A DNA stretch of 64,000 nt from Endozoicomonas numazuensis (lineage in GTDB: Bacteria; Pseudomonadota; Gammaproteobacteria; Pseudomonadales; Endozoicomonadaceae). The notes below the pieces were generated by a model. That model was not told where the DNA came from. It saw only the letters and a list, made by a program, of their open reading frames with translations, and did no database searches. A program made the position numbers and the translations under genes. The stretch spans positions 1 to 64,000 of the forward strand of contig NZ_JOKH01000002.1 in assembly GCF_000722635.1 (NCBI RefSeq). The letters are read 5' to 3'. Positions 5,952 through 8,741 of the stretch are shown piece after piece. Numbering within the stretch: position 1 is the first letter of the stretch; each line of letters opens with the position of its first letter.

Positions 5952-6055
5952 TGAGTGCCCTCGTCTATTGTCATTAATCCTTTACGGCAGAGTCGGCAAA
6001 CCTCGTCAAATCGTTAGTCTACCGGAAGTACTGCTGAATCTTCCGCAGTGGTTTT

Positions 6056-6541
6056 TCAGCTCTGGGCCAGTAAATCTTTAATGGATGCTTCCAGTTCCTC
6101 AGGTTTGGTTGTAGGCGCATACCGCCCTACCACTTCACCTTGCCGATTCAGCAAAAACTTAGTGAAGTTCCATTTAATCTTTTTAGTGCCCATCAAACCC
6201 GGAGCAGCCTTTGTCAAATCCTTGTAGAGGGGGGCGGCGCCTTCGCCATTCACTTCTACCTTTTCAAAGACAGGAAAAGTAACGCCATAGTTTTTTTCAC
6301 AAAATGCACCGATTTCTTCACTACCGCCGGGCTCCTGCTTGCCAAATTGATTACAGGGAAAGCCAAGAACCACCAGCCCCTGGTCTTCATACTTTTTATA
6401 AAGTTCTTCCAGTCCCTGGAATTGTGGAGTAAAACCACACTGGCTAGCGGTATTCACAATCAGTACAACTTTCCCTTTGAAAGCTTCCAGAGACTGAACA
6501 CTGCCGGTTAACAGTGGCATTTCATATTTCAGAACATCCAT
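6056..6541 (-). CDS. Glutathione peroxidase family (thiol peroxidase)
   Basis: A 161-residue thioredoxin-fold peroxidase. The catalytic tetrad is visible: Cys35 in [11 protein letters not shown], Gln69 in FGKQEPG, and Trp124-Asn125 in KWNFTKF. It has cysteine rather than selenocysteine, so it most likely reduces hydroperoxides with thioredoxin, like bacterial BtuE/GpxA proteins. Cys63 and Cys81 could be resolving residues. There is no signal peptide, so it is cytoplasmic. It is one of several oxidative-stress genes in the window, with oxyR at 17140. Confidence 0.92.
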
Positions 6542-7063: not shown

Positions 7064-7089
7064 AAAAAAAAGCGGCTGGGACAAGCCGC
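7064..7089 (-). terminator. Strong rho-independent terminator of the Fur-regulated RNA
   Basis: On the minus strand a perfect 6-bp stem, GCGGCT/AGCCGC (7084-7089 with 7072-7077), with loop TGTCCC, is followed by eight T residues (7071-7064). Confidence 0.9.
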
Positions 7090-7193
7090 CAAAACGATGA
7101 GGATATGCGAGTTGCTGGTAGCTGTTTACCAGCCAATCAGGTCAAAAAGTCTAGTCTCGATAGGCATCTCCTTTTTGTTATTAATGAGAATGA
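7064..7193 (-). ncRNA. Candidate Fur-regulated small RNA
   Basis: A transcript of about 130 nt is predicted on the minus strand between a promoter at 7199-7226 and a strong terminator at 7064-7089. Within it are a 7-bp hairpin (GCTGGTA/TACCAGC, about 7114-7133) and a possible 13-codon ORF (7126-7167, MPIETRLFDLIGW). The ORF's only Shine-Dalgarno (AAGGAG) directly abuts the ATG, so translation is doubtful. Size, Fur control and terminator match the architecture of iron-starvation sRNAs such as RyhB and PrrF. I see no sequence similarity to either, so the class is inferred. A translated Fur-regulated micropeptide is the main alternative. Confidence 0.6.
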
Positions 7194-7204
7194 TTATCAT
7201 TCTA
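7186..7204 (-). promoter_or_regulatory. Fur box
   Basis: AGAATGAtTATCATTCT (7187-7203) is a near-perfect palindrome matching the Fur consensus GATAATGATAATCATTATC. It overlaps the -10 element of the minus-strand promoter, the expected position for iron-dependent repression. Confidence 0.9.
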
Positions 7205-7226
7205 TACCCAATAAAACGGTTTGCAA
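7199..7226 (-). promoter_or_regulatory. Promoter of the Fur-regulated RNA
   Basis: Minus-strand -35 TTGCAA (7221-7226), 16-nt spacer, -10 TAGAAT (7199-7204). The -10 is embedded in the Fur box; transcription would start near 7192. Confidence 0.75.
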
Positions 7227-7328: not shown

Positions 7329-8741
7329 ATGCTTAGACTCAGCGTTCTCCTTACTGGAATCACTTTACTTCTGTCGTTTAATATTCTAGCTTCGCCCACC
7401 CAGCCTCAAATACCCGTCTCTCCTGGTCCGGTGACCCAACTTCCGGGGTATGCAAACTCTATTCAGGGACAGGAATCGGGACACCTTAAAGTCAACACTG
7501 CCACTGATGGCGGTGAGGCTTATCTCTTTTACTGGTTTGCTGAAGCAGAGAGTGGTGATACCACAAGCCCGATTGTGATCTGGCTGAATGGAGGGCCCGG
7601 TTCTTCCAGTCTCGACGGTTTCTTTATGGAGAACGGACCGTTTTATATTGATCCGTTAGCTATGGAAAAAGGAAAAGATTATATAAAACCCCGCCAGTAC
7701 TCCTGGCATAAGTTTGCAGCTTACATGGCCATTGATCAGCCCGCAGGCACAGGCTTATCTTTCAGTACCAGTAATGCCGCTGCAGCCCAAAATGAAGACC
7801 AGGCGACTGAACAGCTCTACCGTGGTATTCAACTATTTCTGGATAACCATAAAGAAAAGAATTATCGGGCTCGCCCACTGATTATCGCGGGCGAGTCATT
7901 TGGTGGGCATTACGTTCCCAGTATTGCTACCAAGATTCTGGAGATGAACAAAGACGCGTCAAACTCAAACATTAATCTGATCAAGATCTCTCTGGGAAAT
8001 CCCTGGGTGGATCCGGCTATCCAAAATCCGCTGATGCCCGTGTTTGCTGCTGAGCACTCCACATTAACCCATAAACAGTTTAATGAAACCAGAACTCTGT
8101 CGTTGAACTGCACCACCCAGATTCTCAAATTCAAAGATAAGACAGTGCCTAAATGGGTCAACGATTACTGTATGAATGCGGTCAATATTGTCGTGAAGGA
8201 TGCACAGAGGAATCTCTATGATTTCAGAAGAAGAGGTCCGGATTATGCCTTTAAAGCGCTGGGTCAATACATGAATCGCGATGACGTCAGAACAGCGATT
8301 AATGCCGTATCCGTTGCCACCAAAAAATGGGATGACACCAATAGCTGGGTAGCAGACCAGTTCGCAGCAGGTGAGCAGAATTCAAAAAGCAAACTGTTTC
8401 CACCGTTGTTTGAAAGCATGCCGGTTTTGATTTACTCAGGTGATCAGGATATGTGTTGCAACTACTTCGCAACCGTTTCATGGCTCCAGAACATTGACTG
8501 GTCTGGCAAGGAAGCTTTTCTGGCAACCACACAGAAGGACTTTTACGATGTCTATGATCAGGCCTATCAGACCGTACGCTCTTCAGACAACCTGACTATG
8601 TTTACTTTTCCTACTGCAGGACATCTGGTTCCTATGGACCAACCCAAACTGGCTTTTGATATGATGAAAAACTATGTGCAGAAGAACAGCATGAGCCAGT
8701 GGTTCAAGGCATTACCTGCCAGAGTTCAGGATAAGGATTAG
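7329..8741 (+). CDS. Secreted S10-family serine carboxypeptidase
   Basis: A 470-residue protein with an N-terminal signal peptide (residues 1-21, ending ILASP). It shows the full S10 signature: WLNGGPGSSS (85-94) for the oxyanion hole, GESFGGHYVP (188-197) with nucleophile Ser190, the acid in YSGDQDMCCN (Asp372 or Asp374) and His432 in TAGHLVPMDQP. S10 enzymes remove C-terminal residues from peptides at acidic pH and are typical of fungal vacuoles and plants. Bacterial members exist but are scattered. It stands alone and ends in a strong hairpin. Export plus eukaryote-type fold suggest degradation of environmental or host peptides (inference). Confidence 0.92.
   Translation: MLRLSVLLTGITLLLSFNILASPTQPQIPVSPGPVTQLPGYANSIQGQESGHLKVNTATDGGEAYLFYWFAEAESGDTTSPIVIWLNGGPGSSSLDGFFMENGPFYIDPLAMEKGKDYIKPRQYSWHKFAAYMAIDQPAGTGLSFSTSNAAAAQNEDQATEQLYRGIQLFLDNHKEKNYRARPLIIAGESFGGHYVPSIATKILEMNKDASNSNINLIKISLGNPWVDPAIQNPLMPVFAAEHSTLTHKQFNETRTLSLNCTTQILKFKDKTVPKWVNDYCMNAVNIVVKDAQRNLYDFRRRGPDYAFKALGQYMNRDDVRTAINAVSVATKKWDDTNSWVADQFAAGEQNSKSKLFPPLFESMPVLIYSGDQDMCCNYFATVSWLQNIDWSGKEAFLATTQKDFYDVYDQAYQTVRSSDNLTMFTFPTAGHLVPMDQPKLAFDMMKNYVQKNSMSQWFKALPARVQDKD

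Follow-up and report, generated by a model that had tools for sequence, protein, structure and literature searches.

A putative Fur-repressed small RNA of Endozoicomonas predicted to pair with the sodB and fadH messages

Results and Discussion

Organization of the locus

The window analysed here is a stretch of 64,000 nucleotides of Endozoicomonas numazuensis DNA. On its minus strand, a consensus scan revealed a sigma-70-like promoter at 7199..7226, composed of TTGCAA (7226-7221), a 16-nt spacer and TAGAAT (7204-7199). The Fur box TAGAATGATAATCATTCTC at 7186..7204 overlaps both the -10 element and the start site. An intrinsic terminator (7090-7071) with its T run, found by a terminator scan, occupies 7064..7090 on the same strand. 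The predicted transcript, the start of which was placed from the -10 element, thus spans 7064..7193, about 130 nt. No ORF of at least 80 amino acids lies between the promoter and the terminator, in agreement with the initial annotation, which had found no normal gene there. The divergent neighbour on the plus strand (7329-8741) encodes a serine carboxypeptidase of the S10 family (PF00450, 305 bits), and within 1.5 kb of the RNA loci of other genomes such a gene was found only in G006.

The Fur box differs at 3 of 19 positions from the palindrome GATAATGATAATCATTATC, which we take to be the Fur consensus. At three mismatches or fewer it is the sole match in the 64-kb window, where 0.03 are expected, and only 2 of 100 shuffled windows contain any such match; the near-perfect Fur box over the -10 that had been described earlier is therefore well founded. 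The good promoter and the strong terminator about 130 nt downstream, also part of that description, are both present, but between positions 6000 and 8500 three promoter-like sites were found against 4.1 expected and four terminator-like sites against 2.5, so that neither count is above chance. The locus nevertheless rises above chance because promoter, Fur box and RNA core co-occur at all 17 homologous loci described below. At each of these loci, TTG.. and TA[GTA]AAT are similarly placed (as judged by eye), a Fur box with 3-5 mismatches in 19 positions is present, and a T run follows the RNA core.

Distribution and gene neighbourhood

A DNA search found the RNA in six further genomes of the genus of the window (g1), and inspection of short Fur-box matches added five genomes of a second genus (g7). 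A covariance model, R1, was built from these 12 sequences. Searched with R1, 17 of 193 related genomes gave a match, one each, with E values from 1.4e-16 to 6.4e-21; stricter filters were applied, as the search set exceeded 40 genomes. The core of the RNA in the window (7091-7173) scored 92.1 bits with an E value of 3.8e-20, this sequence itself being part of the model. The carriers are 7 of the 11 g1 genomes and 10 of the 12 g7 genomes, and belong to no other genus, so that among the genomes searched the family is confined to two GTDB genera. The two g7 genomes lacking an R1 match, G034 and G037, are 91% and 90% complete, respectively. A pattern scan of a collection of genome contigs yielded 14 contigs, 11 of them labelled as Endozoicomonas, with E. 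elysicola (DSM 22380), E. ascidiicola, E. acroporae and E. arenosclerae among them. Others are labelled "Oceanospirillales bacterium strain Hp36" and "Salinisphaera sp. G21_0", the latter carrying a g7-type element with a Fur box. A match in a Bacteroidetes metagenome-assembled genome lacks a Fur box within the 170 nt that precede it and was read as chance. The viral collection gave no match to the RNA pattern.

Downstream of the RNA, on the same strand, lies a glutathione peroxidase gene (6056..6541, minus strand), assigned by a match to the domain PF00255. This neighbourhood is syntenic: the peroxidase gene follows the RNA, on its strand and at no more than 1.5 kb, in 14 of the 17 genomes, in both genera, and at about 1.6 kb in G006. 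Such an arrangement would be expected if the RNA were a Fur-controlled cis-acting leader or attenuator of the peroxidase gene. However, the terminator intervenes, the gene lies some 500 nt away in the window and farther off in G006, and the RNA stays intact both in G004, where only a remnant of the peroxidase is left (50% match over 68 amino acids), and in G002, where none was found in the 15 kb taken. A leader would also leave the complementarity to sodB and fadH described below unexplained. We therefore regard this reading as very improbable, and treat the RNA as a trans-acting candidate.

In four g1 genomes (G005, G007, G008 and G010) recG, the peroxidase gene and an RDD gene are adjacent and the RNA is absent. 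No homologue was detected elsewhere in these four genomes, the best match having an E value of 0.67 and no Fur box. In a sodB and sdh tree with a hand-chosen outgroup the four form one clade inside g1, a position that would fit a single loss of the RNA, although this is suggestive only. In the RNA-less genome G005 (locus L025, about 1500-1560), a Fur box directly precedes an ORF that starts with MARWQDITLQGNEHYRLRDW and has the ribosome site GATGAGGAGG. Just upstream of the RNA locus at recG of G002 (locus L005, 228-482), a match to the Yersinia sRNA Ysr141 was obtained with 46.7 bits, far below the Rfam cut-off of 196; it probably reflects a resemblance to coding sequence.

Predicted structure of the RNA

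The RNA is predicted to be built from a stem, P1, which encloses a first target-binding box (box B), a hairpin (P2) and the first part of a second box (box C). All coordinates given here are on the minus strand. The 5' strand of P1 (AGGA and UGC, 7164..7172) resembles a ribosome site and pairs with the target-binding box, forming AGGA/UCCU and UGC/GCA. P1 can be paired in 11 of the 11 distinct sequences, yet most of its pairs are invariant and are therefore uninformative, since they never vary. Box B, UUUGACCUGAUU (7135..7146), contains the motif GACCUGA, which is invariant in the 12 aligned sequences. Hairpin P2 (GCUGGUA..UACCAGC, 7114..7133) separates boxes B and C and has six pairs, which are paired in every sequence. 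Two of these pairs covary, U-A being replaced by C-G in five sequences and A-U by G-C in two. Box C, CUCGCAUAUCCUCAUC (7096..7111), includes CUCGC, predicted to pair with the sodB leader, and AUCCUCAUC, predicted to pair with the fadH ribosome site; the stretch UCGCA[UA]AUCCUCAUC is present at all 17 R1 loci.

In the alignment A3, made of 12 sequences, 11 of them distinct, every one of the 15 pairs is preserved in 100% of the cells, compared with 31-41% when the structure was slid along the alignment. Of five structure measures, three were reached by 1 of 500 shuffles; many shuffles attained the remaining two (190 and 493 of 500). The single-sequence fold is moderately stable only, with a z score of -1.97 and 8 of 200 shuffles folding as well. 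The loop and the length of P2 vary freely among the sequences, as would be expected of a spacer hairpin. In G001 and G009 (loci L077 and L081) P2 shows an expansion of about 35 nt, and its base CUGGUG/CACCAG is kept. In three of four RNAs folded at full length, the centre of box B was mostly free and UCCUC mostly sequestered in P1; the complete G003 transcript does not form P1 in its lowest-energy fold. The RNA is longer in g7 (L070-L076 and L078-L080), where the Fur box lies 158-167 nt before box C, than in g1, where this distance is 91-95 or 127-128 nt. An extra 5' hairpin, GGCUCAAC..GUUGAGCC, makes up part of the extra length at several g7 loci.

The 13-codon reading frame

A 13-codon ORF, MPIETRLFDLIGW (7126..7167, minus strand, read from 7167 to 7126), does directly abut AAGGAG as previously noted, and had been offered there as a Fur-controlled micropeptide. 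Several features would suit such a product. In g1 a start-like codon (ATG, TTG or CTG) follows GGAG, the g1 sequences differ in length from most of those of g7 by multiples of three, and the ending ...DLI.W followed by a stop is kept in all seven g1 genomes. However, the start codon is ATG at only three of the 17 loci, TTG at two and CTG at 12; in g7 the frame meets no stop before the terminator and reads through it in nine of ten genomes, and is broken by an early stop in the tenth, G036. Conservation falls on the bases of stem P1, box B and hairpin P2, and the DLI.W codons coincide with box B and P2. Moreover, AGGAG abuts the start codon in g1 with no spacer. In the structural model, AAGGAG is one strand of the conserved stem P1 and pairs with the RNA's own UCCU. 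The comparison between relatives that had been proposed to separate RNA from peptide thus favours the RNA, the core of which is kept at 17 of 17 loci while the frame is not. The ORF was judged not to be a conserved gene, and a micropeptide as the product appears extremely improbable. The RNA itself is accordingly the product considered below.

Predicted pairing with sodB

Among possible targets, sodB and sdhC were examined first, since both are targets of RyhB and PrrF. The SodB protein is of the iron type, matching NCBIfam NF007832 with 355.9 bits (cut-off 348). Pairing was scored by a contiguous-helix scan of the leaders and by duplexes of short segments. In the genome of the window (G000) the sodB leader reads GCGAG-ACG-AAUCAGGUCAAA, where AAUCAGGUCAAA is perfectly complementary over 12 bp to box B UUUGACCUGAUU (-17.2 kcal/mol) and GCGAG over 5 bp to CUCGC in box C. 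The two helices come in antiparallel order, one on each side of P2. The box B helix has 12 bp in G000, G004 and G006, and is found in all 17 RNA-bearing genomes at -10.0 to -17.2 kcal/mol; the second helix ranges from -8.8 to -9.7 kcal/mol, likewise in 17 of 17. Among the iron-enzyme messages, where the initial annotation had recommended that targets be looked for, sodB thus shows complementarity in every genome that carries the RNA.

The second helix is also matched by lineage. RNAs with CUCGC occur together with GCGAG in the target in seven of seven genomes, and RNAs with UUCGCAAA together with UUUGCGAA in ten of ten; the g7 leader UUUGCGAA..UCAGGUCU matches UUCGCAAA and AGACCUGA of the g7 RNA. 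The match is imperfect, as the sodB leader of G000 is a better partner for the RNAs of G001 and G009 than their own leaders are, and the RNA of G000 still reaches -21.2 with g7 sodB. For six representatives, the sums of the two helices are -18.8 to -26.0 with their own leaders and -7.2 to -15.6 with those of the four RNA-less genomes. In all four of the latter the box B site is altered (CCAGAUC, CUAGAUC, CUAGAUC and UCAGAUU). The second-helix site is largely kept in three of them (-7.0 with the G000 RNA, -8.1 with the G036 RNA), so it is the box B site that distinguishes the RNA-less genomes.

The number of shuffled leaders, out of 200, that equalled or beat the sodB helix was 0-8 for G000, G002, G003, G004 and G006, 62 for G009, 110 for G001 and 19-40 for g7. 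Since the helix of a single genome is often not exceptional, the case for sodB rests on conservation. The box B site lies 32-43 nt upstream of the sodB start codon in G000 and 39-64 nt in g7, away from the ribosome site. It follows a promoter-like sequence (TAGATT/TGGATT-17-TAATAT/TACTAT, read by eye) and should therefore be at the 5' end of the sodB mRNA. G000 has 55 non-self copies of ATCAGGTCAA; on our reading, that of sodB alone stands in the leader of a gene start with a ribosome site close behind. The genome-wide excess of this word (56 in G000 against 6 of the reversed word) was dropped as evidence, as it is probably due to codon usage: of the 54 remaining non-self copies, 50 fall within open frames of 100 codons or more. 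Taken together, the sequence comparisons make sodB a strong predicted target.

Predicted pairing with fadH and other candidates

Sites for the second part of box C were sought with the word GATGAGGAT. All 49 non-self sites were fetched in G000 (47 stretches, three overlapping matches being counted as one) and all 23 in G009; in G003, 40 of 113 non-self matches were fetched and repeats were dropped. A locus passed when the site stood at a gene start with a ribosome site and an ORF of at least 80 amino acids. Five loci passed in G000 and one, fadH, in G009; under a similar filter at least 12 passed in G003, several of them by eye inside frames. Because G009 has fadH alone, only fadH can be common to all three genomes. 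Indeed, GATGAGGAT is the ribosome site of fadH in G000, G009 and, among the matches listed, G003, so that the target check extends to a second iron enzyme in three of three genomes. The pairing of box C with fadH amounts to -20.6 kcal/mol in G000, -18.5 in G003 and -14.6 in G009; in G000 it extends on both sides and is the best of the five loci. The protein matches the solved 2,4-dienoyl-CoA reductase 1ps9 with 939 bits, and among the best 25 NCBIfam models listed none reached its cut-off. All three FadH proteins contain C-x2-C-x3-C-x11-C, which presumably binds a 4Fe-4S cluster. Nevertheless, the case for fadH is weaker than that for sodB, because a ribosome site may be preserved for reasons unrelated to the RNA, and we consider fadH a fair candidate target.

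The other candidates gave less. For sdhC, a match of 10 bp between AUGAGGAUUU and box C was found in G021 and G027 only, and the other 15 RNA-bearing genomes have UGAGGGG-type stretches only (partly read by eye); sdhC was set aside as weak. Ferritin and Dps genes of 13 genomes showed no consistent match, a Dps-like gene with a possible site being seen in two of the four g7 genomes examined. Contig 1 of G003 carries GATGAGGAT sites every 4-10 kb or so at about 2.68-2.74, 2.94-2.96 and 4.19-4.34 Mb, a spacing that points to a series of large repeated genes or elements.

Proposed mode of action

Based on these comparisons, the RNA is most likely a Fur-repressed, trans-acting, iron-sparing sRNA of the RyhB/PrrF-like class, from a family absent from Rfam 15. 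What is typical of the class was found here: a Fur box overlapping the promoter (17 of 17 loci), a non-coding RNA with an intrinsic terminator, and conserved complementarity to the messages of iron proteins (sodB in 17 of 17 genomes, fadH in the three examined). The original suggestion of a RyhB/PrrF-type RNA is thus supported by conservation, by structure, by the Fur boxes and by the two complementarities.

We propose the following course of events, in which expression, Fur binding and dependence on Hfq are what we infer. When iron is ample, Fe-Fur would occupy the -10 element and block transcription. When iron is short, an RNA of about 130 nt, or by our estimate about 195 nt in g7, would be made. 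The motif GACCUGA of box B, the centre of which is predicted to be unpaired, would initiate contact with the sodB 5' leader, and the second helix would be closed by UCGC of box C, with P2 bulged out between the two helices. The AUCCUCAUC part of box C, at rest largely held by the ribosome-site mimic AGGAG, would cover the fadH ribosome site. The probable outcome is that iron-containing enzymes would be repressed and scarce iron kept for essential uses.

The sign of the effect on sodB deserves consideration. The RNA may be real and Fur-controlled and its pairing may activate or protect the sodB mRNA, as the site lies ahead of the ribosome site and close to where the mRNA is predicted to begin, and such leader positions are known for stabilising as well as for destabilising sRNAs. 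Repression suits fadH better, because there the site is the ribosome site itself. Moreover, in passages of two reports, iron-type superoxide dismutase is lowered under iron shortage by RyhB-, PrrF- and BrrF-type RNAs (PMC6321483, PMC7377471). Activation of sodB is hence rather improbable, and repression is the outcome that we favour.

Relation to PrrF and other iron-responsive RNAs

Rfam models searched at their gathering thresholds gave no match in the whole 64-kb window, as the initial annotation had anticipated in stating that the sequence matches neither RyhB nor PrrF. For RyhB this held in the window at the gathering threshold and also in the RNA stretch at E values up to 10, and BrrF and NrrF gave no match in the Rfam searches of either. 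For PrrF the statement needs a qualification, namely a resemblance below threshold and without significance around UCCUCAUC. The PrrF model (RF00444) scored the window RNA with 19.6 bits, below its gathering score of 90, with an E value of 0.25 in 201 bases and of 1.9 genome-wide.

A genuine but highly diverged PrrF, from whose core the AGGCUAAUCACGG half has been lost, would account for some of the observations. In the genome of the window the PrrF model ranks this RNA first of four matches, the parts come in the same order (Fur box, hairpin, UCCUCAUC, terminator), and a clear PrrF (E 1.4e-8 or better, 90 relatives searched) is present in 6 of 38 family members, never together with the RNA, and in none of the 17 RNA-bearing genomes was PrrF found with an E value better than 0.2. 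However, the lax search that ranked the RNA first also gave matches in 9 of 14 control genomes. Among 11 homologous loci searched at E values up to 10, only L007 gave a match, of 24.3 bits. Of the PrrF core ...AUCUCCUCAUCAGGCUAAUCACGG, as seen in relatives, only the 8 nt of UCCUCAUC are shared. Most PrrF loci end with ATCTCCTCATCAGGCTAATCACGG or close variants, whereas here GCA[TA]ATCCTCATC is followed by the terminator. Conversely, R1 applied to 16 PrrF-search loci (of 30 fetched) found the PrrF site in none, and its one chance-level match (E 0.64) lies elsewhere in L045. No peroxidase gene lies within 1.5 kb of the PrrF loci L031-L060, nor in the 14 and 19 kb taken around two PrrF loci of the family. 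With a score so far under 90 and a negative reciprocal search, membership in PrrF was rejected, and we consider a diverged PrrF unlikely.

The preferred reading, a separate family of the same class, shares with PrrF of Pseudomonas and relatives the Fur box at the promoter, a size near 150 nt, the order of hairpin, UCCUCAUC and terminator, and sodB as a target, here predicted. In contrast to PrrF, it lacks AGGCUAAUCACGG, would meet sodB mainly by another box, GACCUGA, and shows no common neighbourhood. With RyhB of enterobacteria it would share the class of Fur-repressed sRNAs acting on iron enzymes including sodB, again as a prediction, and no more than that, given the absence of a RyhB match noted above.

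Iron-sparing sRNAs have arisen repeatedly with unrelated sequences. A tentative scenario for the present case is that in an Endozoicomonas-type ancestor an unrelated RNA replaced PrrF, which is retained elsewhere in the family, and came to grip sodB in a novel manner, clamping the 5' end of its mRNA in two parts around the hairpin of the sRNA and, at rest, concealing the seed for other targets behind a mimic of the ribosome site; one clade would later have lost both the RNA and the main sodB match. The RNA would add a family of iron-sparing sRNAs from marine animal symbionts, bacteria that depend on their host for iron. This family comes with named predicted targets and with changes of RNA and target in step, and the clade lacking the RNA, in which the main sodB site is changed, offers a natural control. 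The replacement of one iron-sparing RNA by another therefore becomes testable.

Titles and opening abstract lines of the open-access literature on Endozoicomonas contain no description of such an RNA, and in excerpts of PMC8085936 E. elysicola appears only as the outgroup of a tree. BrrF of Burkholderia and NrrF of Neisseria are named as analogues of RyhB and PrrF in portions of PMC7377471, where BrrF is described as having no sequence similarity to known Fur-regulated sRNAs and as lowering sodB. According to the same portions, and unlike the RNA described here, BrrF lacks its own Fur box and probably arises along with the hemP transcript. The tandem arrangement of PrrF has been called exclusive to P. 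aeruginosa in part of PMC6321483. Contrary to this statement, two tandem PrrF-like copies were observed in each of three genomes, G038 (L032/L056), G070 (L036/L057) and G074 (L044/L058).
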